IMG/VR virus record: IMGVR_UViG_3300027749_000007
Location: 1-43,502 of that record
Direction: 5' to 3' (one strand)
Length of the DNA: 43,502 bases
DNA from: a virus
Shown: positions 4,574-39,687 of the stretch, piece by piece
How positions within the stretch are numbered: the first letter of the stretch is position 1
How the letters are laid out: the number at the start of each line of letters is the position of its first letter
Program-made: the position numbers and the translations under genes
Notes under the pieces: generated by a model
The model's input: only the letters and a program-made list of their open reading frames with translations
Databases searched by the model: none
What the model was told of the DNA's origin: nothing

Positions 4574-5203
4574 ATGGCACAAAACGAATTAGCACTAATT
4601 AACCCGTCCGATTTATCCCTAGTGGAAAACAACGCAATGACGGGGGCGCAGCTTAGACAGTTACTTAAAAAAACACCCGCACAGTATGTGCATACCCGTC
4701 CCGCTAAAGGTGGTGGAACATGGGAGTATGTAACGGGCGGCTATGTAAAAAAAGTCCTTAATCTAGTATTCGGATGGAATTGGTCTTTTGAAATTGTAGA
4801 TGAAAAGATAATGCATGGTGAAGTTATCGTAAAAGGTAAGCTAACCTGCACTAGCAATGGAGTAACCATTACCAAAATGCAGTTTGGCAATAAAGACGTT
4901 ATCTGCAAAAAGGGTACAGATACACCGCTATCTATTGGTAACGACCTAAAGGCGGCAGCAACAGATGCACTTAAAAAGTGTGCCGCAGAAATTGGTATAG
5001 CCGCAGACATTTACAACAAAATGGATTTTAAAGAGGTAAATGTTTATGTCGAACCAACAATAACCATTGATGACTTAACCGAACTGTACGACCTTAAAAA
5101 AGAGGCGTTATCTCCCGAAGATATTACCAATGCCGAAAGGATTATCAACAACAAGGAAACCAATTCTTATAACAAGTTATTCAAAATGCTACAATCAAAA
5201 TGA
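4574..5203 (+). CDS. Rad52/Sak-type single-strand annealing protein
   Basis: 209 aa. Residues about 35-140 carry Rad52/Rad22 (Sak) family features: YVTGGYVKKVLNLVFGWNWS, then alternating strands (EVIVKGKLTCTSNGVTITKM) and the helix SIGNDLKAAATDALKKCAAE. The family anneals complementary single strands during phage recombination and replication, usually with a partner exonuclease. That partner is the next gene, whose ATG overlaps this stop by 4 bases. The C-terminal 60 residues are variable and may bind host proteins. Confidence 0.88.
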   Translation: MAQNELALINPSDLSLVENNAMTGAQLRQLLKKTPAQYVHTRPAKGGGTWEYVTGGYVKKVLNLVFGWNWSFEIVDEKIMHGEVIVKGKLTCTSNGVTITKMQFGNKDVICKKGTDTPLSIGNDLKAAATDALKKCAAEIGIAADIYNKMDFKEVNVYVEPTITIDDLTELYDLKKEALSPEDITNAERIINNKETNSYNKLFKMLQSK

Positions 5204-5964
5204 GCGACAACATAAACAACAGTACGCACAGAATAGGTAGGTTTACAAGTTCTGAAATTTACAAGCTAATGACATTGAACCGTAAAGGTGATGATTTTGG
5301 CGCACCCGCTTTAACCTACATTGAGGAAACAAACTTTAAAAGATTGTTGGGTAGGTCTTTAAACGCAGACATGAGCAGTAAGCCTACATCATGGGGGAAT
5401 CTTGTCGAAGGTCTTGTATTTGATAAAATAGGATTGGATTTTACCTATTCCTCACAAGTTACCGATATTCACCCAACAATTGATTATTGGGCAGGTAGCA
5501 AGGATGGTACAAGAGAAGGCGAAAATCGGTCGGTAATTGACATAAAAAATCCATTTACCATGAAATCATTTATCCATCTTGTAAAGCCATTGTATGACGG
5601 TTTAAATGGCATGGATGCAATGAACTTGATACGGGAAAATAGTGCAGACGGTGAAAAGTATTATTGGCAGTTGGTAAGTAATGCCATAATCAATAATTGC
5701 GATTGGGCGGAACTGATTGTATATTGTCCTTACAAATCAGAACTAAAGGAAATTTACGCACTTGCAGAAGGTAATCCCGATGTTAAATGGTTGTCGTATG
5801 TAAGCGATAGCGAACTACCTTATTTGATTGATGGCGGATACTTTACAAACTTAAATATTGTAAGGTTTGAAATATCGCAAGCAGACAAGGACGCATTAAC
5901 CAACGCAGTATTAAAAGCTGGCAAAATGCTTATCTCATATCCGACACTTAACACTAACAATTAA
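5200..5964 (+). CDS. YqaJ-type PD-(D/E)XK recombination exonuclease
   Basis: 254 aa. GRFTSSEIYKLMT near the start, WGNLVEG (Glu about residue 70), GSKDG (Asp about 102) and VIDIKNP (Lys about 114), then YYWQLVSNAIINNCDWAEL, follow the motif order of lambda-exonuclease/YqaJ nucleases. The role is 5'-3' resection to feed the annealing protein encoded just upstream, with which it overlaps by ATGA. The pair is a Red-like recombination module. Confidence 0.85.
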   Translation: MSDNINNSTHRIGRFTSSEIYKLMTLNRKGDDFGAPALTYIEETNFKRLLGRSLNADMSSKPTSWGNLVEGLVFDKIGLDFTYSSQVTDIHPTIDYWAGSKDGTREGENRSVIDIKNPFTMKSFIHLVKPLYDGLNGMDAMNLIRENSADGEKYYWQLVSNAIINNCDWAELIVYCPYKSELKEIYALAEGNPDVKWLSYVSDSELPYLIDGGYFTNLNIVRFEISQADKDALTNAVLKAGKMLISYPTLNTNN

Positions 5965-14051: not shown

Positions 14052-14326
14052 TGAATTTTTATAGGTAGTTTAAATAGCGTATCATTTCGGTACATATTAA
14101 AAGTATCAACACCTATTTGAGTCGGCATCACATAGGCCGGACTAACCGTACTCACTGTAATGCTATGCAGTTGCGGGTTTGATAAATCAACCAAATACAC
14201 ATGCTTTGCATAGTTTGCGGGTATAGAATATTTTACATTTACAGGCAAAGTAATCTGCGTTAGGACTTTCGTTACCTTTTGCGCAGATACGCTCACTGAA
14301 ATTAGAAATAGCAATATTGTCCTCAT
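14048..14326 (-). CDS. Secreted protein of 92 aa
   Basis: MRTILLFLISVSVSAQ is a clear Sec signal peptide with an A-Q cleavage site common in Bacteroidota. The mature part is beta-rich (KVTKVLTQITLPVNVKYSIP). Its ATG overlaps the stop of the Gly-rich gene (ATGA). Export to the periplasm or outer surface is inferred. Function unknown. Confidence 0.65.
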   Translation of the reverse strand: MRTILLFLISVSVSAQKVTKVLTQITLPVNVKYSIPANYAKHVYLVDLSNPQLHSITVSTVSPAYVMPTQIGVDTFNMYRNDTLFKLPIKIQ

Positions 14327-15240
14327 GGCTTAAATGTTCCTGTTGATGTTGTCCACTTAATGATAGTATAAGACCCGTCTGTTAGTGTTGAATATGTACC
14401 TGTTATAGTAGGCGTTCCGTATGATGTAAGATAGCGTACCATTACAACACCTGATCCACCTGCGCCACCATTACCTGCCGCACCGCCGCCGCCACCGCCA
14501 CCGCCTGTATTAGCTGTTCCACTTGTCCCTGCTCCAAAGTCTGCATAACCACCTGCGCCGCCGCCGCCTTGTCCGCCAGCACCTGCTGCTGTTGATGGGG
14601 AATTATGCGAATATCCTGCACCACCACCACCACCACCGTAATAAACGCTACTACCTGTTATAGAACAAGTAATACCATCGCCCCCTGCTGCTGACTGTGT
14701 TGATGTTCCTGCCGCACCTGCTACACCTGCACCACCACCTGCACCACCTGCGTAATAAGCCGTATGTCCATCGCCACCTGCTTTTACGTTAGTACCACTC
14801 CCGGCCGCCGCTCCCGTTTGTGCCGCTCCGCCATTATTTACACCACCACCACCAGAGCCACCAGACGTTGGAGATTTATAAGTACCACCGTTATAAGTAC
14901 CACCACCGCCACCGCCATAAGCAGTATATCCTGTGAATGTTGAATTGCTACCCTTTGCAGTAATGGCTACACCTGTTTCTCCTGCACCACCTGCTCCTAC
15001 ACTAATGTTATAAGTAGTACCTATTGTAAGCGTTTGAGAGGTTTGATAGTTCACATCACCACCACCACCACCACCTGCAACGTAGTAACCACCACCACCA
15101 CCGCCACCAACTATTAAAAAATCAACATTTATAGTAGCGGGTACTGTACTTGCTTTCTTAGGTATAAGCATCCTCATCGGTTGCCCACCCGAACAAACCG
15201 ATATAATACAACCTAATAAAACTAAAAATTGTTTACGCAT
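14323..15240 (-). CDS. Glycine-rich fibre/adhesin-like protein with signal peptide
   Basis: 305 aa from ATG 15240 (a GTG two codons upstream is less likely). MRKQFLVLLGCIISVCSGGQ resembles a Sec signal. Residues about 40-270 are dominated by poly-Gly tracts alternating with short Tyr/Ser/Asn loops (VGGGGGGGYYVAGGGGGGDV), as in glycine-rich phage receptor-binding domains. The C-terminus (GSGVVMVRYLTSYGTPTITG) is a beta fold typical after Gly-rich domains. It overlaps the preceding fibre gene by 19 bases. Confidence 0.7.
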   Translation of the reverse strand: MRKQFLVLLGCIISVCSGGQPMRMLIPKKASTVPATINVDFLIVGGGGGGGYYVAGGGGGGDVNYQTSQTLTIGTTYNISVGAGGAGETGVAITAKGSNSTFTGYTAYGGGGGGTYNGGTYKSPTSGGSGGGGVNNGGAAQTGAAAGSGTNVKAGGDGHTAYYAGGAGGGAGVAGAAGTSTQSAAGGDGITCSITGSSVYYGGGGGGAGYSHNSPSTAAGAGGQGGGGAGGYADFGAGTSGTANTGGGGGGGGAAGNGGAGGSGVVMVRYLTSYGTPTITGTYSTLTDGSYTIIKWTTSTGTFKP

Positions 15241-17429
15241 ACCCACTTGTTATTACCGTAGCTTGATGTTGTACAATATTGAAAAACCACCGTCAAGGTA
15301 GCTGTTGTAACCGTTGTTGTTGGTAGTGTAACCGTTGAACTTACAAAAGATGCACCCCACGTTATCGCCCTTGCTGCTGTTCCCGTTATCTGAATTTCAA
15401 GTATATCGCCATCTACCGGAGTACCTGATAAGTTCGTAGTCATACTCGTAATATCCGCCGCCTGTGCAGTCAGCTTATATATATCCACGTTATCAGTATT
15501 GATTGTAGGTGTAGCCGATGAAGTTGTATTACCAACCCTTGCAGTCCAACGCTTATTGGTTAAAGTAGTTGTAGATGATGCGGTAAATGTAGGCGTAACA
15601 CTTGTCCAATTCGTACCGTCTGACTGCATTACGTTACCCGAAGTTGACGGTACTGCGTATGTTTCTGTACTTGCTACAAAATTTGTTCCGTCTGAAACTA
15701 TAATCTTTCTTGTCGTAGCCGATGCGTTTGGATAGGTTGGAGTAGATGCTATCCAATTCGTACCATCTGAAACAATTATTTTACCACTTGTTGCACTTGC
15801 ATTTGGAAATGTAGGCGTAGATAACACATAGTTTGCGCCATCCGATAAAAGCACTTTATTAGCCGTTGCCCCTGCCGATGTTGGGATAGTTGACGTTGAC
15901 CATGAAGGCGTAGTTGTAGCACCTGACAATAGCATTTTATTTGCCGTTGCTGTTCCCGCTAATATCGCCCCTGCCGATGCCGTAGAATAAAATATACCAC
16001 CGTTAGATGCTGTAAGGCTTGCATTTGTACCTCCATTGGTTAAAGCTACTTGCCCCGTAATGCCTATTGTACGCCCCGTTATAGCTATATTTGTTCCTGC
16101 CCCTAGTGTAGATACCACTTTGCTGAATGTAGTCGCTGTATCTTCAATTAAAGTACCACTGCCTGTAATTGTTCCGCCGCTTAAACCATAACCTGTTGCA
16201 ACACTTGTAACCGTTCCACCTGTATTAGATGAGTTGATTGTGCGTCCTGCGATAGTAATATTTGTACCCGCTCCAAGTGTTGTAATAAGTTTAGAAAACA
16301 AAGTTGCGGTATCAATAGTTTGTGTTCCTGTTGTAGTTATCGGATTTGTGCTATTAGTTAATCCATACCCTTGACTTAAAGATGTAATAGTCCCTCCGCT
16401 CGAAAGACTTGTATTTGTAATAGTCCTACCTGAAATACTTATACCAGTTCCCGTTCCTAAAGTAGTTGTATATTTCTGAAATAAAGTAGCTGTATCACTT
16501 ACTAAAGTTCCTGACGTTGTTATTGTTCCTCCCGAAATACCATAACCACTACCTACCGAAGTAACAGACCCAACGCCCTTTGCCGCTATCAATATATTCA
16601 AACTATCTACCGCTTTTTGCCTCCATGACCTTGTACTTACTCCGTTAACCGTATCTGCGTATGTCCAATAGCTACCGATAGGCTGAAAGTTAGTATTACC
16701 CCATGTGTTTACCGCCGCCGTTGTTGGGTATAGTGTGTTGTTCAAAGTTCCAAATGTCGTAGCTTTATTTGCCACGTTTTCAGCCGTATAACCTAATGAC
16801 GGTTGTTTACCTGCTATAAGTACGTCTAAGCTATCCACATTCTTTTGTAGCCTGTTTCGTGATGCCACTGCGTAACTATCAGCTACAACCGTTCCCGCCC
16901 CCGTAATAGTGCTAAAATTAGTTCCCCAACCGCTTGCAACTGATGTTACTGTGCCTGCACTTGCGGGAGTTGACCATACACCATCACCACGCCAATAAGT
17001 TGTAGCCGATGCAGAAGTCCCACCGTTCAAATTAGTAACAGGAATATTCCCACTAAGGTTTATAATCGGGTTAACTGTTGGTGTACCCGTTACTGATATA
17101 TTAGTACCGCCTGTTACACTTAAAACTGTTCCTGTACCACTTGCTAATACTGCACTATCAACGTAACTTTTATCTGATACTTGTCTTTGCCTGTACCCGT
17201 CAAAATACCATAAACGCTGTGTAGCTGAACTATCAAACCAAATCATGCCGAATTTAGAATAAGCAGAATACGGATTGTAAGACATAGGGGGAGTAAAATA
17301 CCGCAATGTAGTATAACCCCCGTTGTGCCTTATTAGTTCATTTGTATTGCCGTTATTCACTATCACCTGCCCATTAGCGGAAAATGCAGTAAATATAATT
17401 GCAATCAGTATTTTTATATACTTACCCAT
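15222..17429 (-). CDS. Repeat-rich tail fibre-like protein with signal peptide
   Basis: 735 aa from ATG 17429, chosen because it begins a signal peptide (MGKYIKILIAIIFTAFSANG). After an N-terminal domain there are three copies of a roughly 55-residue module (TVTSVATGYGLSGGTIT, then GAGTNIAITGRTI) and about four copies of a 25-residue module (KIIVSDGTNWIASTPT). The composition is Thr/Ser/Gly-rich and beta-repeat, as in phage fibres. A receptor-binding or surface-structure role is likely. The export signal is unusual for a virion protein. Confidence 0.75.
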   Translation of the reverse strand: MGKYIKILIAIIFTAFSANGQVIVNNGNTNELIRHNGGYTTLRYFTPPMSYNPYSAYSKFGMIWFDSSATQRLWYFDGYRQRQVSDKSYVDSAVLASGTGTVLSVTGGTNISVTGTPTVNPIINLSGNIPVTNLNGGTSASATTYWRGDGVWSTPASAGTVTSVASGWGTNFSTITGAGTVVADSYAVASRNRLQKNVDSLDVLIAGKQPSLGYTAENVANKATTFGTLNNTLYPTTAAVNTWGNTNFQPIGSYWTYADTVNGVSTRSWRQKAVDSLNILIAAKGVGSVTSVGSGYGISGGTITTSGTLVSDTATLFQKYTTTLGTGTGISISGRTITNTSLSSGGTITSLSQGYGLTNSTNPITTTGTQTIDTATLFSKLITTLGAGTNITIAGRTINSSNTGGTVTSVATGYGLSGGTITGSGTLIEDTATTFSKVVSTLGAGTNIAITGRTIGITGQVALTNGGTNASLTASNGGIFYSTASAGAILAGTATANKMLLSGATTTPSWSTSTIPTSAGATANKVLLSDGANYVLSTPTFPNASATSGKIIVSDGTNWIASTPTYPNASATTRKIIVSDGTNFVASTETYAVPSTSGNVMQSDGTNWTSVTPTFTASSTTTLTNKRWTARVGNTTSSATPTINTDNVDIYKLTAQAADITSMTTNLSGTPVDGDILEIQITGTAARAITWGASFVSSTVTLPTTTVTTATLTVVFQYCTTSSYGNNKWVCVNNF
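15600..15900 (-). repeat. Tandem 75-base coding repeats in the fibre gene
   Basis: Approximate limits. Successive 25-residue units begin KVLLSDGANYVLS, KIIVSDGTNWIAS, KIIVSDGTNFVAS and VMQSDGTNWTSV. Such repeats allow length change by recombination. Confidence 0.7.
16055..16575 (-). repeat. Three roughly 170-base coding modules in the fibre gene
   Basis: Approximate limits. Three successive units share the framework T[VI]TS...GYG.....IT.SGT...DTAT.F.K...TLG.GT.I.I.GRTI. Confidence 0.7.
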
Positions 17430-31763: not shown

Positions 31764-32822
31764 TTAAGGAACTAAGCCAAATTCGTAAACAACACTTTCG
31801 TTAGCAGTAGAGAAAGGAGATAAAGCAAATGCGTTATCCACTGAAATCTCAAACTGCATCATATCATCCTGTGCAACACCGTTGGTAGCCGAAGTGTCCT
31901 GACGTAATGCGTAACCATGTACGGCAAAAACAAGTCCACCTGAATAGATACCGCCGGGGTTTGTAATCGGGTCAACAATCGAACCGTAACCACCGAGGTA
32001 AGACATATAATCGCCATGTCCTTCCCTGTTCTGCTTTGGAATCCACTGTATGTTTGCGAAAGTACCGGGTTGCATAACAAGTGCAACACCCGTTGGATAG
32101 TTTGCATCTGAAAGTTCAACCGAAGGTGCAATTTCCATGCCTGTAAACTGGAACGCTGTATTTACGGCGTTACCTGCACCCTGCGACATCCAATACTGTG
32201 CGTTGTTGTAGGTTGCAAGGTCAAACACTGCATCAAATACACCGCTGTTATAGTAGTTGGCAGTCATTACGGCTTTTGCAAGCTGTGTGAACTGTTTACC
32301 ATATCCGGCATTTGAAATTTCATGTACGAAGTTTGCCGCATTCCATGTAACCTGCGTACCAACGGGAGTAGTAGTTTTCACTATCTGATTCTTAGCGGCA
32401 AGCAAAGCGGCGATGTTATCAGTTTCAATCTGCGCATGAATATTCAATATGCAGTTCTTTATGTTCTGTGCCATTGCCTCATTGAAAGTGAAAATGTTAT
32501 TATCCATTTCTTTCAGTGAAATCTGGAATGAATCAGCATAAGTAACCCATGTGAACGTCTGTTGGATTGAATCACCGCTAGGGCCGGTATGTGTTGCAGA
32601 ACGTTGAGATGCAGGAGTGCGGCTCTGACGTTTCATCATGTAGCCATAAACTGCCCTATCTTCCCTTGTGCGGAGGTTTTCTACTCCTTTTACAAGAATG
32701 TTTTTGTTTTTGATACCCAATGCAACGGTAGGTAATACCTTTTCACGCATTTCGGGTTTTGTGAATTGCTCCGCTAGTGTAGTCTGTGCTGCGACTAGGT
32801 TAGAAGCTGTAAAATTTGCCAT
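31764..32822 (-). CDS. Major capsid protein
   Basis: 352 aa from ATG 32822 (MANFTASNLVAAQTTLAEQF). Typical of HK97-like capsid proteins without a long delta domain: a helical N-arm, long spine-helix region (NIFTFNEAMAQNIKNCILNI) and beta segments ending FEISVDNAFALSPFSTANES. It lies directly downstream of the scaffold and has its own late-box promoter and an upstream terminator, fitting very high expression. Confidence 0.85.
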   Translation of the reverse strand: MANFTASNLVAAQTTLAEQFTKPEMREKVLPTVALGIKNKNILVKGVENLRTREDRAVYGYMMKRQSRTPASQRSATHTGPSGDSIQQTFTWVTYADSFQISLKEMDNNIFTFNEAMAQNIKNCILNIHAQIETDNIAALLAAKNQIVKTTTPVGTQVTWNAANFVHEISNAGYGKQFTQLAKAVMTANYYNSGVFDAVFDLATYNNAQYWMSQGAGNAVNTAFQFTGMEIAPSVELSDANYPTGVALVMQPGTFANIQWIPKQNREGHGDYMSYLGGYGSIVDPITNPGGIYSGGLVFAVHGYALRQDTSATNGVAQDDMMQFEISVDNAFALSPFSTANESVVYEFGLVP

Positions 32823-32924
32823 TTTTTTGAAGTTAAAAGTTAACTCCAACAACCGTAGGAAAAAACGTTGCTCAAAACATGAGCAGGTAGGACATTAGAA
32901 ATAGAACTATTTGCTAATTGTAGG

Positions 32925-33049: not shown

Positions 33050-33859
33050 CTAATCCATTATGACGGCTTGACCCGCATCTTTCAATTCTTTTACTTTTGT
33101 GGCAAAGTGAGTGGCATATTCTTCGCCGTTAATGCTTTTACCGCTATTGGCATCAGTCCATGCCTTTTCGATTTCAGAACGCTTTGCAGAAGTAACATTC
33201 CCACCTTTAGCAGGGTCATTTTGACCGCCACGACCTTTAGGTGGTACGGGGTCTGTTGTTTGTGCGCCTACCTTGAACCCTTTTTCGCCCTCAAAGAAGT
33301 TAGTTAAAGCCGTTTTAGCGTCAACTTCTTTTTGCGTCATTTCCTCAACTACCTTTTCACCGTTACGATAGGCAATAAGTTTGCCGTTTTCCTTCTTAAA
33401 CTCGAACCCGTTAGCCTCCGCAAGTGCCTGTAATTCCTTCTTATTCATACCGTTGTATTCGGCAGGTATGGCATTGTGTATAGTGGTAAGCAGTTCAACT
33501 TTGGACAATTTACCTTCAACCTGTTCCTTCTCTTTGGTAAGTGTAACAATGTTTTCCTGCAACTTTTTTACCTTGCCGTCAACATCGCTTTTACTCTCAA
33601 AATACTGTACGAGGTCTGATATGTCTTTGCCCGGAAACTCCAAACCGTTATCCTTTTTGTAGGTCTTAACCGCTACTTCAATCCCCGCTTTACGCCCAAC
33701 CTCTACCTTTTCACTTTCAAACTTAGCTAATCCATCAATGGTAAATACCTTTACTTCGGGTATATCCACGTCAACATCCGTTTTGGCTTCTAAGGCATCT
33801 TTTATGTTGATACCCAATAGTTTAGCCATTTTTTCAATACTTGATTTGCTTAAAGCCAT
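33050..33859 (-). CDS. Capsid scaffolding protein
   Basis: 269 aa. MALSKSSIEKMAKLLGINIK, then a coiled-coil stretch (KKLQENIVTLTKEKEQVEGK) and a Gly/Pro/Lys-rich hinge (VPPKGRGGQNDPAKGG) before a short C-terminal helical region. It is acidic and helical, lies directly upstream of the major capsid gene, and matches the layout of phage scaffolds. Typical use is as an internal assembly core, later expelled or cleaved. Confidence 0.75.
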   Translation of the reverse strand: MALSKSSIEKMAKLLGINIKDALEAKTDVDVDIPEVKVFTIDGLAKFESEKVEVGRKAGIEVAVKTYKKDNGLEFPGKDISDLVQYFESKSDVDGKVKKLQENIVTLTKEKEQVEGKLSKVELLTTIHNAIPAEYNGMNKKELQALAEANGFEFKKENGKLIAYRNGEKVVEEMTQKEVDAKTALTNFFEGEKGFKVGAQTTDPVPPKGRGGQNDPAKGGNVTSAKRSEIEKAWTDANSGKSINGEEYATHFATKVKELKDAGQAVIMD

Positions 33860-33879: not shown

Positions 33880-34314
33880 TTATTCGTAAATAAACGTGTC
33901 AACAAAACCGCCATCAATTTCGGTATCCCCATCCTCACGAAGTCTGCGTATCATTTTAATAGGGATTCTTTGCCCGTCCTCTACTAAATATTGCTTAGTA
34001 TCGTGAACCTTTGTATTCAATTGTTTTGCTCTCTTTGGCTCAATCCGAACATTAGTGAGCAACTTTTGTTGTAAAACTATTTCGTAACGGTCAAACATTT
34101 GCAAACCTCTGAAAGTCTGCATGTGCGGGGTTACAAATACCGAATAGCGGGTGTATTGTTTGTTTTCTCCCAAATCAAGTTTCTTAGCAGTTGCCGTAGG
34201 TTTTGGGGTTGGTGTTTCGGCAACCGCCGTATCTACTAATGTTACATCATTTTCAGAAATCACACCCAATGCAATTTCTTTTGCCCTTCTTTGTTCTTTT
34301 GTTAATCCAGCCAT
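33880..34314 (-). CDS. Head region protein, 144 aa
   Basis: MAGLTKEQRRAKEIALGVIS with a Pro/Thr-rich linker (TPTPKPTATAKK, about residues 34-45), then a beta-rich domain (YTRYSVFVTPHMQTFRGLQM). The linker and charge suggest a two-domain head accessory protein. Not recognised. Confidence 0.65.
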   Translation of the reverse strand: MAGLTKEQRRAKEIALGVISENDVTLVDTAVAETPTPKPTATAKKLDLGENKQYTRYSVFVTPHMQTFRGLQMFDRYEIVLQQKLLTNVRIEPKRAKQLNTKVHDTKQYLVEDGQRIPIKMIRRLREDGDTEIDGGFVDTFIYE

Positions 34315-34326
34315 AATTATTGTTTT

Positions 34327-34782
34327 TTACGCTTTAAAAATCTGTTGTTTTGGTAATGGTTGTTGTCCGAGTAGTTTGTTTTTTGCATTTGCCTTTTTCA
34401 AATCTTCCTCATACATAGCCTGCACTTCCTCATTCGCCTTTAGCTTAATCGGTGCTACTTCTTCTTCCCATTTGGTTGCCATGCCTTTAATGACGTTCTT
34501 AATTTCAACGTACATCACTAAGCTGTAATCAAACTGTATAGCCGTTGTGTACTCAATCGCATTTAAGGCGTTGCACATTTCGAGCAAATTAAAGTCATAA
34601 CAAGACTTGTTAATCAAAGCCTCAAACGTTGACCATGCACATTTCAAAGTGTATTCCGTTTGGTGTTGCAGTGCCTTATACAACCACGTTTGGAAATTAT
34701 CATGTATCAATGACTTGTCGAACTTTTGCTCACTTAAAGCGGCATCAATTTTCTGATTTAATAGCTGTTTGTAATCCTGCAT
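34327..34782 (-). CDS. Head region protein, 151 aa, helical
   Basis: MQDYKQLLNQKIDAALSEQK, wholly helical pattern with a C-terminal coiled coil (EEVQAMYEEDLKKANAKNKL). It lies 12 bases upstream of gene 33880. Possibly a head-completion protein; not recognised. Confidence 0.65.
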   Translation of the reverse strand: MQDYKQLLNQKIDAALSEQKFDKSLIHDNFQTWLYKALQHQTEYTLKCAWSTFEALINKSCYDFNLLEMCNALNAIEYTTAIQFDYSLVMYVEIKNVIKGMATKWEEEVAPIKLKANEEVQAMYEEDLKKANAKNKLLGQQPLPKQQIFKA

Positions 34783-34792
34783 TTATGTTTGT

Positions 34793-34939
34793 TTAAGAAT
34801 TTATTTGCTTATCCAAATTATCTAACTCAACTTTTAACTGTTGCTTCTTAACGCCTTTAGCCTTTTCCCACTTGGAGAAAAGTTTATTGTACGCTAAAAT
34901 TAAAACCGATTTATCAGCTAAAACCTTAGACTTTGGCAT
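34793..34939 (-). CDS. 48-aa basic helical protein
   Basis: MPKSKVLADKSVLILAYNKL followed by a Lys-rich coiled coil (WEKAKGVKKQQLKVELDNLD). It begins 2 bases after the ferritin-like gene stop and ends 10 bases before the next gene, filling the gap exactly. That supports a real gene despite its size. Function unknown. Confidence 0.65.
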   Translation of the reverse strand: MPKSKVLADKSVLILAYNKLFSKWEKAKGVKKQQLKVELDNLDKQINS

Positions 34940-34941
34940 AG

Positions 34942-35424
34942 TTATTTGAACACCTTTTTTTCCATCATGCGTAACTGGAATATATCCGTAATGCCTTCTA
35001 ACTTTTTCAGCTTATCAGCATACTCAATAACAGATTGATTTTGGATATTAATGAACTGTATAAAAAATACTTCGCAGGCTGTGTAATCTTCAACCGCATC
35101 CATTGTTTCCTCATATAGTTTAAGTAAATCGTATTCCATTTGATACGCACCTTCGGTAACTTCATTGAGTGTGCTACCGATTTCGGGGGTGCTGATTGTG
35201 GGAAGTTCGGGCATTGTATTCCACCCTACTAAATGGTCTTGTAATATCTTAGCGTGTACGCCTTCATCAACAGATTCGGCTAAGTAAAATTCAGCAGCAA
35301 CGTCAAAGCCATTAAGTTTACAAAAATTAGACGCAGCAAGGTAATAACGTTGTGCATACAATTCGTTATAAATCCTTTCATTAATCAACTTTATTACCTC
35401 ACTTGGCAAAGTCTGCATTTCCAT
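34942..35424 (-). CDS. Ferritin-like protein with ferroxidase residues
   Basis: 160 aa, close to bacterial ferritin FtnA (about 165). NERIYNELYAQRYYLAASNF opens helix A. Putative di-iron ligands are Glu21, Glu54 and His57 (DEGVHAK), Glu97 and Gln128. Their spacing of 33, 3, 40 and 31 residues is almost that of Escherichia coli FtnA (33, 3, 41, 33). The family stores and oxidises ferrous iron in 24-mer cages. Encoded between the portal and small head proteins and 5 bases from the portal stop, so it is expressed late with the virion genes. Confidence 0.85.
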   Translation of the reverse strand: MEMQTLPSEVIKLINERIYNELYAQRYYLAASNFCKLNGFDVAAEFYLAESVDEGVHAKILQDHLVGWNTMPELPTISTPEIGSTLNEVTEGAYQMEYDLLKLYEETMDAVEDYTACEVFFIQFINIQNQSVIEYADKLKKLEGITDIFQLRMMEKKVFK

Positions 35425-35429
35425 ATAAC

Positions 35430-37166
35430 TTAGTTTAATTGAGTTTGTTGTTTTGGTTCAGGTGGTGCAAGTCGTTTCGGGTCAATCTCGCCTATTTTAC
35501 TATCAGCATACGCATCACGCATAATAATCAACCTTTCATAACTATACGTCATAAACCAATTTTCGGGCAACAATTCAAGCCATTGGCTATAAAATAGCTT
35601 TGCGGCATACTGTTTCGGCTCAACAAATGCTATCTGCGCCTGTTCAATGCTCATAAATGGTGCGGGGTCTAAACGGAACTCCATTACTAACCGTAGTCTT
35701 GTAACTTCATCACCGCTATATTCACTATCCACCCACTGCATGTAAATATTTTTCAGCGAACTGTAATTAGTCTTGCCATTGGCAATCGCTAACTGCAACT
35801 TATTCCATATCTCATCGGGAGATTCAATAAGGAAACGCCTACCATAGTTGATTTCACAACCTTTATAATCATTAGGGAAATTGAACTCCCCGATTCTATT
35901 TGTAATCCACTTTTCAATCCACTCGCAGGCATCGGAATATTTACATAGCCTGTCATTAACTGGCTGAACGTCTATAAACCTGCCTGTTGCAGTTTCTTGG
36001 CTACTATCTTCTAATTGGTGCGTACCCCATGTACAATAATGCGCCTCACGATACTGACGGTCAACCGTAGATTTCATTTCCTGCCAACTATCAATAGCTG
36101 TTTCCACTGTTCCGCCCGGCACTGTAACCACTGGCATATCCTTATTAACGGGGTATGGCAATAGCATCAGTTTTGAAACATCTTTCTTACTATCCTTACC
36201 GCTACCGTTACAACTAGGACAATCTGCGCCCTGACGTTTACCCATTCCCTGACAAGTAGGACACTTGCCTACATACATCCAATTCAACGGGAAACCATGA
36301 TGCAATTCAAACATAACCAACACTGAACGACTGCGCAAATGTTGGTCTGCTATACCAAAAGTATTGTTATCGGGGGAAACGTAAAATTCACGCACATTAT
36401 CCCAAATGTTAGATGCTGTTACCGCAGGAACGTAGCCGAAATAATTAGGGTATGTTTCATCTTGAATTATTGTTGCCTGACCGTTATTCCATAGAATAAG
36501 ATAATCGTAGGCATCATCAATAACACGATAGTAACCGCTTTGCCCTGTATCTAAGGACTTATTTACATCCTGAAAGTTCTGCATAGTCGGGGCAGAACCA
36601 ACCGCTGTTCCATCACCGTTACCCACCTTCCTATCGGTCTTGAATACAAGATACTCAAACATACGACCATGAGGCTTCGGCATATCGTAAACGGTCTGAA
36701 CGCATTTGTAAGTAGGGTATGTTTCATTGTCGCCTACCTCCATCATTATAATACCCATTGGGTCATACCAATAAGCGGGCATGAAGTACGTTTCAATCCA
36801 CTTGCGGATAGAATAATGGTCTTTGACGTTTGATAAAATATTCTTTAGCTGTTGTTTCTTTTCACCATCAATATTGTAGTTGGTAGAACCGCCTTTAGCC
36901 GTAAATATCTTGTCAATAGGTCTATGTAGTCGTGAATAGAAATCTTCGTTAGAAGGGGAATATAACTGCCTCAATTTGAGCAATCGGGAATCCTCATAGT
37001 AATCGAACTTAGTAATAGCCTTATCAAGTCCTTTGCCCGTCATGTGCATAGTACAATGTGCATCGTACTTCTGTATTTCCTGAACATACAGCTTATTAGG
37101 TCTATCCCGAAGGATAGACGTAATACTAAGGCTTTTATCCGCTTGTTCCTGTAATGGCAGTATCAT
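35430..37166 (-). CDS. Portal protein with embedded zinc-finger-like insertion
   Basis: 578 aa. MILPLQEQADKSLSITSILR at the start; the long helical/beta body and position between terminase and scaffold match a phage portal, the dodecameric DNA gate. At about residues 298-322 it carries CPTCQGMGKRQGADCPSCNG, two CxxC knuckles of the DnaJ CxxCxGxG type. This is not usual in portals and could be a zinc-stabilised insertion. It has its own late-box promoter and a leader under 10 bases. Confidence 0.8.
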   Translation of the reverse strand: MILPLQEQADKSLSITSILRDRPNKLYVQEIQKYDAHCTMHMTGKGLDKAITKFDYYEDSRLLKLRQLYSPSNEDFYSRLHRPIDKIFTAKGGSTNYNIDGEKKQQLKNILSNVKDHYSIRKWIETYFMPAYWYDPMGIIMMEVGDNETYPTYKCVQTVYDMPKPHGRMFEYLVFKTDRKVGNGDGTAVGSAPTMQNFQDVNKSLDTGQSGYYRVIDDAYDYLILWNNGQATIIQDETYPNYFGYVPAVTASNIWDNVREFYVSPDNNTFGIADQHLRSRSVLVMFELHHGFPLNWMYVGKCPTCQGMGKRQGADCPSCNGSGKDSKKDVSKLMLLPYPVNKDMPVVTVPGGTVETAIDSWQEMKSTVDRQYREAHYCTWGTHQLEDSSQETATGRFIDVQPVNDRLCKYSDACEWIEKWITNRIGEFNFPNDYKGCEINYGRRFLIESPDEIWNKLQLAIANGKTNYSSLKNIYMQWVDSEYSGDEVTRLRLVMEFRLDPAPFMSIEQAQIAFVEPKQYAAKLFYSQWLELLPENWFMTYSYERLIIMRDAYADSKIGEIDPKRLAPPEPKQQTQLN

Positions 37167-37230: not shown

Positions 37231-37255
37231 CTTTTGTTTTTAGAGTAGCAAATTA

Positions 37256-37287
37256 TTTGTTTTTATCGCAATAAAATCGTAAATTTA
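37256..37287 (+). promoter_or_regulatory. Promoter of the HNH endonuclease gene
   Basis: TTTG (37256-37259), 20 bases, TAAATTTA (37280-37287). It is divergent from the portal promoter; the late box lies between them and nearer the portal side. Confidence 0.65.
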
Positions 37288-37383
37288 CCTTATAATCACA
37301 CTCGTACTGTGAATAAAAACATTGCCTCTTATAAGGTAAGCTATGTACGAGATAGCCCCTTATTTGAGGATTTACTTTTTTAT

Positions 37384-37857
37384 ATGAAACTAATACCGCT
37401 AACACAAGGGCAATTTGCAAAGGTAGATGATGATGATTTTGAATGGTTAATGACCTATAAATGGTATGCTAAGAAAGTAAAAAGCGGTTATTTTTATGCA
37501 TATACAAAGAGAAATAAGAAAATATTTTCCATGCATAGATTGATAATGAATACTACCGATAAATGCGTATTTGTTGACCATAAATTACATGATACTTTAG
37601 ATAATAGGAAAAGTGAATTAAGGATTGCTACACGTAGCCAAAATGGTGTAAATAAAAAACAAAAAATGGATGGCGCAAATAGATTTGTTGGCGTTCATAA
37701 GGTTGCTAGAAGTAAAACATTTAGGGTAATGGCATATAAAGACAATAAGCAATTTTATGTTGGTAGTTTTAATGATGAGGTAGAGGCGGCATTGGCTTAT
37801 AATGAAAAAGCAAAAGAGTTACATGGTGAATTTGCGTTCCTTAATAAGATACCATAA
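37384..37857 (+). CDS. HNH endonuclease with AP2-type DNA-binding domain
   Basis: 157 aa from ATG 37384 (MKLIPLTQGQFAKVDDDDFE, the usual start of this family) and not the GTG at 37309. WYAKKVKSGYFYAYTKRNK, then FSMHRLIMN and VFVDHKLHDTLDNRKSELRI hold the HNH His/Asn residues, and the C-terminal FVGVHKVARSKTFRVMAYKD is the AP2-like DNA-binding fold. Such genes are homing or intergenic endonucleases. It is inserted on the + strand between terminase and portal, with its own promoter, and ends 2 bases from the terminase stop. Confidence 0.88.
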   Translation: MKLIPLTQGQFAKVDDDDFEWLMTYKWYAKKVKSGYFYAYTKRNKKIFSMHRLIMNTTDKCVFVDHKLHDTLDNRKSELRIATRSQNGVNKKQKMDGANRFVGVHKVARSKTFRVMAYKDNKQFYVGSFNDEVEAALAYNEKAKELHGEFAFLNKIP

Positions 37858-37859
37858 TA

Positions 37860-39320
37860 CTATCTTTCTACACTAATCATGTCCCAACCGAGATTCTCCT
37901 CATTTTCTATTATAAGCGTTAAGCAGTCTGGCGCATCGTCAAAGGAGTTACCGCCAGCAGCCATATATCCTTGCACATCCCTAGCGAACTTCGGGAACAT
38001 TTTTTCCCAATTAGCGGGGTAGTAAATCATATTTTGCACATCAGCCGCCTTAGTAAATATCCTCACGTCTTTATTATCCCGTTGGTGAAACCACTCAATA
38101 GCCGTACTTGTATTACCCATTTCACGACAAATACGTTCCACATTACGGGCAAATCCCCTGCCACCGTTATTACTTTCAATCCTAGCTAAGTTGACTTCGT
38201 ATTTAGTAAGCTGTTTAGCCGTTTCCCCCTCCGTTGTTTCCATTCCCTGCGGGGTGTAGTAAATATCCAGCACATAATACCCCGCAATTGTAGGCATGTA
38301 CACAATAGAACATAGGTAGTCCTTACCCGTATCTGCTGTATCAATAACACATTTCACTATACCGCAATCGGGTGGTAAGACATCATAAGTCTTGAACGTC
38401 TTGTACAAACGCCCTTCAATCGGCATAGGTCTTTGCATGTACTGACGGTCAAAAACTATCTGATTAGCTTCCCTTAATGCCTCCAATTCGGGGATAGTAT
38501 GCTTGAACTCCCATAAAGCTGTACCATCATCCTTTATGCAGGGCAATGATACGACTGTCCAATTTTCCTTATTATCTTCAAGTAAATACCCGCATAAATC
38601 CCGTTCATGTAGCCTCTGCATAATGATAACAATAGGCGTTTTACGGTTATTTATACGGTTTTTAATTGTACTTTCCCACCGATTATTTACACGTTCCCTC
38701 TCTTTTTCATTATCGGCATCATCAGGCTTTATCGGGTCGTCAATAATCAACGCACCGCCAAATAAATCCCCGCTTTCGGCAAAAAAGGACTTCATTTCTT
38801 TATCTTCATCAGCAGTTGCAGACCCGACAAGACCCGCACCAAAACCTGTTACCTGACCACCAGCCGAAGTAGCATATAACCCTCCGCCCTTAGTAGTGTT
38901 CCAAATCTTCTTACTATCCCTGTTTTTTCTTATCTGCACTTCTGGAAATAACTCCTGATATTCAGGCAATTGCGTGATTTCTTTAGCATAATCACTATTC
39001 AATAACGCCAAATCATCAGAATACGAAAGGTGAATAAATTTAGCCGCAGGATTGATAGCCAAACCCGCCGCAATGAAGTTCACAACAGCCATTTCCGTTT
39101 TCCCGTATCGAGGAGCGATGTTAATTATCAGCCTAGTTATCTCCCCACGCAATACCTTATTCAAGGCATCAGATATGATTTTATGATGTTCGCCAATAAC
39201 AAACTTTGCAGGTCTGAAACGGGCATGAAAAAAATACCTAGTAAAGTACAAAAAATCAGTCATACACAAAGCCTTCTTCATGTACAACTGCTCAATATAT
39301 TCTTTTGTGTGTTCAGCCAT
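37860..39320 (-). CDS. terL: Terminase large subunit
   Basis: 486 aa from ATG 39320 (MAEHTKEYIEQLYMKKALCM). ATPase part: Walker A APRYGKTE (residues 69-76) and Walker B GALIIDDP (about 190-197), then the coupling region IVIIMQRLHERDLCGYLLED. Nuclease part: CVIDTADTGKDYLCSIVYMP with the first catalytic Asp, then IESNNGGRGFARNVERI and a terminal SFDDAPDCLTLIIE. It packages DNA through the portal and cuts it. Late operon, downstream of the small subunit and a set of tiny genes. Confidence 0.95.
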   Translation of the reverse strand: MAEHTKEYIEQLYMKKALCMTDFLYFTRYFFHARFRPAKFVIGEHHKIISDALNKVLRGEITRLIINIAPRYGKTEMAVVNFIAAGLAINPAAKFIHLSYSDDLALLNSDYAKEITQLPEYQELFPEVQIRKNRDSKKIWNTTKGGGLYATSAGGQVTGFGAGLVGSATADEDKEMKSFFAESGDLFGGALIIDDPIKPDDADNEKERERVNNRWESTIKNRINNRKTPIVIIMQRLHERDLCGYLLEDNKENWTVVSLPCIKDDGTALWEFKHTIPELEALREANQIVFDRQYMQRPMPIEGRLYKTFKTYDVLPPDCGIVKCVIDTADTGKDYLCSIVYMPTIAGYYVLDIYYTPQGMETTEGETAKQLTKYEVNLARIESNNGGRGFARNVERICREMGNTSTAIEWFHQRDNKDVRIFTKAADVQNMIYYPANWEKMFPKFARDVQGYMAAGGNSFDDAPDCLTLIIENEENLGWDMISVER

Positions 39321-39381
39321 TAAAATCCAAACAGTTCTAAAACTTGTGAAATTTTTTGAAAATTTTTTTAAATTAGTCCAT

Positions 39382-39687
39382 TTAATGAACGTCCGAAAGG
39401 ACGGATAACTTATCGAGATTGACCGTTGCGCTATTACCAATTTTTTGTAGCACAAAATCACCGTTCGCATCCTTAACTACTTCATTGTGTCCGTTTTTGA
39501 TTACCCTATGTTTACTCACCTCATCGGGCGAAGGTATGCGGGTTTCGTTGATTTCATCAAAATAACTGTCATCAACAAAAATATCTTCAATCGTTGAAAT
39601 ATCCCAAACTTTACCATTGTATTCAGTAGGTTCCCAAATATCAAAGCCTAGTGATTTTGTCCAGTAGTAACCCTCCTGTCTTTCCAT
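39382..39687 (-). CDS. Protein of 101 aa, unknown
   Basis: MERQEGYYWTKSLGFDIWEP, acidic and beta-rich, without membrane segments. The opening (YYWTKS..DIWEP..YNGKVW) is a short all-beta pattern seen in small phage proteins of unknown role. It lies 61 bases upstream of the large terminase. Confidence 0.65.
   Translation of the reverse strand: MERQEGYYWTKSLGFDIWEPTEYNGKVWDISTIEDIFVDDSYFDEINETRIPSPDEVSKHRVIKNGHNEVVKDANGDFVLQKIGNSATVNLDKLSVLSDVH

Follow-up and report, generated by a model that had tools for sequence, protein, structure and literature searches.

The stretch of DNA analysed here (the window) covers 43,502 nt, positions 1 to 43,502 of IMG/VR virus record IMGVR_UViG_3300027749_000007, and belongs to a siphovirus, as indicated by its tape measure gene. 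Relatives of its portal occur in aquatic phages, those of Polaribacter among them, and the host is probably a member of the Bacteroidota. In the head operon, a gene for a ferritin-like protein lies between the portal gene and the genes for the scaffold and major capsid protein (Table 1), and PHROG assignments together with conserved gene order bear out this placement, which had been made from the letters alone. Ferritin is separated from the preceding portal gene by 5 nt and from a small basic ORF behind it by 2 nt, spacings which imply that ferritin is co-expressed with the portal; its position in the operon suggests that this expression is late. The small ORF accompanies ferritin in the window and in the contigs L002 and L003 and is absent from every other locus fetched. 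Since two further contigs carry the same ferritin gene in the same place, the gene is not an assembly artefact.

Table 1. Features of the ferritin locus and of the window discussed in the text.
Feature	Position	Strand	Remarks
Ferritin, phage-type, 160 aa	34942..35424	-	Pfam, PDB, AlphaFold2, Foldseek, ligand counts; Y28 conserved
Exchanged cassette	34780..35453	.	Last 23 nt of portal, ferritin and 48-aa ORF
Portal protein	35430..37166	-	phrog_7376, E=2e-38; upstream neighbour of ferritin
48-aa basic ORF	34793..34939	-	2 nt after ferritin
151-aa ORF	34327..34782	-	Accessory, window clade only
144-aa ORF	33880..34314	-	Homologue of the single portal-scaffold gene of relatives
Probable scaffold	33050..33859	-	phrog_30432; name inferred from conserved position
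Major capsid protein	31764..32852	-	phrog_7231 (virion structural); aligned with annotated Pan5 MCP
Terminase large subunit	37860..39470	-	Nearest named relatives: Bacteroides phages, 47%
Single-strand annealing protein and exonuclease pair	4574..5964	+

Several other features of the window were recorded. The portal contains a DnaJ-like zinc-ribbon motif (CxxCxGxG ... CxxCxGxG) whose cysteines (302, 305, 316 and 319) do not vary among five portals, and it matches Pfam DnaJ_CXXCXGXG at E=7e-4, below the cut-off. Some 615 nt (37245-37860) separate portal and terminase and hold an opposite-strand ORF, 37309-37857 (+), which by the look of its sequence is a putative HNH-type homing endonuclease; in L002 and L003 the portal and terminase genes are joined directly, without this insert. 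In the tail region, the ORF translation at 14323-15246 (-) is a glycine-rich repetitive protein, possibly an adhesin-type tail protein.

The original prediction of a ferritin was confirmed over the full length of the ORF, which matches Pfam PF00210 Ferritin with 50.3 bits (E=3.1e-13; cut-off 24.5) and, in the PDB, the ferritins of C. jejuni, H. pylori and E. coli (best E 2e-11). It also matches PHROG 16594 (E=8e-8), a family that is listed as of unknown function and that matches every phage ferritin tested. Using an alignment of 35 phage sequences as input, we obtained an AlphaFold2 model with a pLDDT of 94.3, in which helices A (8-37), B (41-67), C (86-110) and D (115-142) form a four-helix bundle that is followed by helix E (148-159). 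Foldseek aligned this model to the V. cholerae, E. coli and H. pylori ferritins with TM scores of 0.86-0.91, the value for FtnA being about 0.9. In a profile alignment to FtnA, the sequence of which was checked against 1EUM, E21, E54, H57, E97 and Q128 of the window protein correspond to residues 17, 50, 53, 94 and 127, with Q128 falling on Q127. The spacings between successive ligands, with those of FtnA in brackets, are 33 (33), 3 (3), 40 (41) and 31 (33); the differences of 0, 0, 1 and 2 agree with the earlier statement that the ligands lie within two residues of their FtnA positions. Superposition on FtnA further suggests that the five ligands meet at one site, and helix E together with the FtnA-like fold is consistent with assembly into a 24-mer cage.

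The likeness to FtnA holds for the fold and the diiron ligands and fails at the third iron site. Bacterial FtnA proteins (E. coli 1EUM, V. cholerae 3QZ3, H. pylori 3BVE and C. jejuni 1KRQ) have the five-helix fold in common with the window protein, the FTN group is the closest by both sequence profile and structure, and FtnA E17, E50, H53, E94 and Q127, as well as Y24, all have equivalents. Unlike FtnA, however, the window protein lacks E126, E129 and E130, which make up the third site and part of site B, and has I127, Q130 and S131 in their place. Glutamate occupies these positions in 58 of 58, 57 of 58 and 57 of 58 members, respectively, of a bacterial FTN set (n=58), whereas in the phage ferritins position 127 is I, G, V or another residue (E in 1 of 45) and position 131 is S or A in 40 of 45. 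Eukaryotic H-chain ferritin has a ligand set of the kind E27/E62/H65/E107/Q141 and a small residue, A144 in the human H chain, at the place of FtnA E130. The centre of the window protein resembles this two-iron H-type, with a similar ligand set, although its sequence is nearer to that of bacterial FTN. On sequence and model, we thus place the protein in the FTN branch of the ferritin superfamily, with a predicted two-iron centre like that of the H-type.

Two other assignments were considered and rejected. The helix-B motif ESxDExxHA recalls bacterioferritin, and the top NCBIfam match is TIGR00754; that match, at 40 bits, falls below the cut-off of 125.55, and the residue after E54 is G55 rather than the haem-ligand Met, a position at which none of the intact phage ferritins in the alignment has Met. 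Helix D also differs from bacterioferritin in having Q128 and S131 instead of the ligands found there. Assignment to Dps is ruled out by helix E, by the intra-subunit ligands and by the lack of a Dps structural match, the top 50 Foldseek matches listed being FTN, BfrB and H-chain ferritins with no Dps among them.

A scan with four phage ferritins recovered the family in contigs of up to 236 kb, giving 46 distinct sequences from uncultivated viruses, 45 of which were used for ligand counts after the near-copy L003 had been left out. E21, E54, H57 and E97 are each kept in 44 of the 45 and Q128 in all, the single exception being L157. Because these ligands are constant while the third-site positions vary freely, selection appears to act on the chemistry, beyond the fold. 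Phage ferritins also carry E50, E134 and Y135, signatures that set them apart from FtnA. In a tree, they occupy one side of a 100/98 branch facing 15 bacterial FTN sequences, and thus appear to form a phage-specific clade separate from the sampled bacterial ferritins, none of which is from Bacteroidota. The tree was made without the third-site helix-D columns, the E134-Y135 region and L157, and without bacterioferritins, which join the window ferritin by a long branch when included.

Outside this family, the ferritins of the window, L011 and L012 had no counterpart among 50,697 GenBank phage records at E 0.01-0.05, and matches in Klebsiella and Flavobacterium were chance (E>0.1). We did not count as phage ferritins the FtnA matches in unannotated 'phage' records (H7-H12), which are probably bacterial DNA or unverified, or L013-L015, which are ftnA genes of bacteria located close to the ends of prophages. 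In BFVD, some proteins of metagenomic phages already bear the name ferritin, and A0A8D9C9X5, A0A8S5Q7U4 and A0A6J5MFB8 have the ferritin fold in common with the window protein. A search of the open-access literature, outside which most subscription papers lie, found no paper describing the clade of the window ferritin.

The gene is an accessory one. Among 43 whole records of portal relatives, 39 lack ferritin and only L003, L108, L109 and L157 have it; many of these records are fragments, so that single absences are no proof, and the overall absence argues that ferritin is dispensable for head assembly in this portal group. In a second portal family, unrelated to that of the window, ferritin is present in 9 of 80 loci: directly after the portal in seven, after the next gene in one (L309/L205) and farther down in one (L305/L164). 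The site after the portal is not a general cargo hotspot, since 35 of 50 ferritin-poor loci have the layout portal, one gene, scaffold, capsid, and other ORFs of at least 140 aa there look, by eye, like the same conserved gene; ferritin is the unusual insert.

Comparison with L002 indicates that the gene has moved recently. Across the cassette the two contigs differ at 9 of 674 nt (98.7% identity), while the flanks are about 80% identical; dS is 0.07 for ferritin as against 1.3 for the portal and 1.5 for the scaffold, the flanks being saturated (dS >1). Ferritin and the 48-aa ORF have therefore been exchanged recently, and since the edges of the near-identical block are those of this two-gene unit, the unit behaves as a self-contained accessory function. 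The ferritin dN/dS against L002 is 0.04, a value based on very few differences. Such exchange could possibly be aided by the annealing protein and exonuclease that the phage itself encodes. L003 has the ferritin in common with the window but carries a diverged 46-aa ORF and, behind it, an extra 139-aa ORF (L003:6633-7052), which follows the cassette only in L003 and has weak matches farther downstream in L140, L138, L135 and L131.

Insertion beside the portal has occurred repeatedly. The window and L108 ferritins belong to different phage subclades (AU p=0.002), yet both directly follow homologous portals, and the L205 ferritin is likewise in a different subclade from those of L177 and L164 (AU p=0.005). 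By a rough count, in which L157 is perhaps not independent of the others, there appear to have been six separate insertions into head operons, four of them directly after the portal and spread over two unrelated portal families. Insertion boundaries were counted within scanned stretches of 19-27 genes, and these portal-anchored scans favour neighbours of the portal, though not precisely the portal/ferritin boundary. Elsewhere in the family, ferritin lies just upstream of terminase and portal (the L163 clade), beside an endolysin gene (L178), beside a gene for a clamp-loader-like ATPase (L162) or, in some clades, near tail genes. In L192-L204, including L195:599-6001, ferritins lie between giant genes (about 900-2000 aa), and in one of these, in L195, ART-PolyVal and ddrB-ParB domains were recognised.

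The one exception to ligand conservation also follows a portal. The protein of L157 (7869-8357) retains only the glutamine ligand and carries E21Y, E54M, H57R and E97A, the partners of the helix-B substitutions depending on the alignment, and it was found in one contig only. Its model nevertheless has a ferritin fold (pLDDT 92.8; TM up to 0.89 against FtnA). Either a cage without ferroxidase activity is useful in at least one phage, or this gene may be decaying.

Three roles had been proposed for the window ferritin: iron or oxidative protection of the host during infection, an iron-carrying virion component, and structural reuse of the cage. Protection fits best because strongly constrained ligands are combined with an accessory gene that was recently exchanged as a cassette. 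We consider it probable that this is a catalytically competent ferritin of the phage clade, carried as a moron-like head-operon cassette by a Bacteroidota siphovirus and acting as a late iron store. Late in infection, the protein and the portal would be translated together, the ferritin chains would assemble into a 24-subunit cage, and Fe(II) would be oxidised at the H-type two-iron centre and stored as ferric mineral; the lowered labile iron may then reduce Fenton damage to phage DNA and to assembling particles in the dying host. Another conceivable role is iron supply, with host iron being put aside to serve iron-dependent enzymes of the phage or to be set free at lysis; giant viruses encode ferritins, and a role in iron supply has been proposed for these (PMC7136201). 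For the window phage we regard iron supply as improbable: a gene placed in a late head operon would be expressed late for supplying replication enzymes, and beside ferritin we recognised no gene for iron uptake or for an iron enzyme.

Packaging of ferritin in the virion, in the head interior or at the portal, where it would shield packaged DNA or be delivered to the next host, is fairly unlikely. In its favour, four of the six independent insertions into portal operons are immediately behind the portal and involve two portal families unrelated to each other, and the filling of the same slot at least twice independently could point to a virion role, as could the L163 arrangement and the clade between giant polyvalent-type genes, whose class of products includes virion proteins that are injected, N4 vRNAP for example (PMC9569702). 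BFVD also holds three proteins of uncultured phages named 'prohead protease' (A0A6J7WPK9, A0A6J7XDU5 and A0A6J7WIS1) that match the ferritin model weakly (E 0.01-0.06, TMq 0.63-0.67, rmsd >7) and possibly carry a ferritin/Dps-like domain fused to a head protease. Against packaging, no fusion was recognised in the window ferritin, other clades have the gene beside endolysin or ATPase genes, portal proximity may simply give late, strong expression, and exchange of the cassette independently of portal and scaffold is contrary to tight co-adaptation. Cages of the host may also co-purify with particles, bacterioferritin of the host having been detected with virions of phage AXL1 (PMC9206674). We think it unlikely that the phage ferritin is packaged, and possibly delivered, by the virion with L157 as a derivative keeping only the cage. 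The L157 protein, with four ligands replaced and its predicted fold intact in the same slot, would also suit a cage or subunit that truly forms part of the head or connector; ligand retention in all other phage ferritins, absence from most portal relatives and movement as a cassette make such reuse very improbable here. The accessory distribution would suit a neutral passenger or a recent acquisition from a host with no selected function, but across a deep phage clade, apart from the sampled bacterial ferritins, selection is purifying and the ligands are conserved, which leaves this scarcely credible.

Protection by ferritin-superfamily proteins has a precedent in Bacteroidota phages, as the Gratiaviridae gut phages encode Dps and Mn-catalase, for which protection from oxidative stress was proposed (Benler et al. 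2021, PMC8008677). The window protein fits the same protective idea but, unlike these proteins, is an FTN-type ferritin with helix E. Our findings describe what appears to be a phage-only ferritin branch whose iron centre is altered and which occurs in many uncultivated tailed phages, moving between them as a head-operon cassette, and they give PHROG 16594 a likely role. The part played by iron in infection and in virions can thereby be tested through a defined gene family; if packaging proved true, some tailed phages would constitute a class equipped with a ferroxidase cage against iron damage to the genome or to the newly infected cell.
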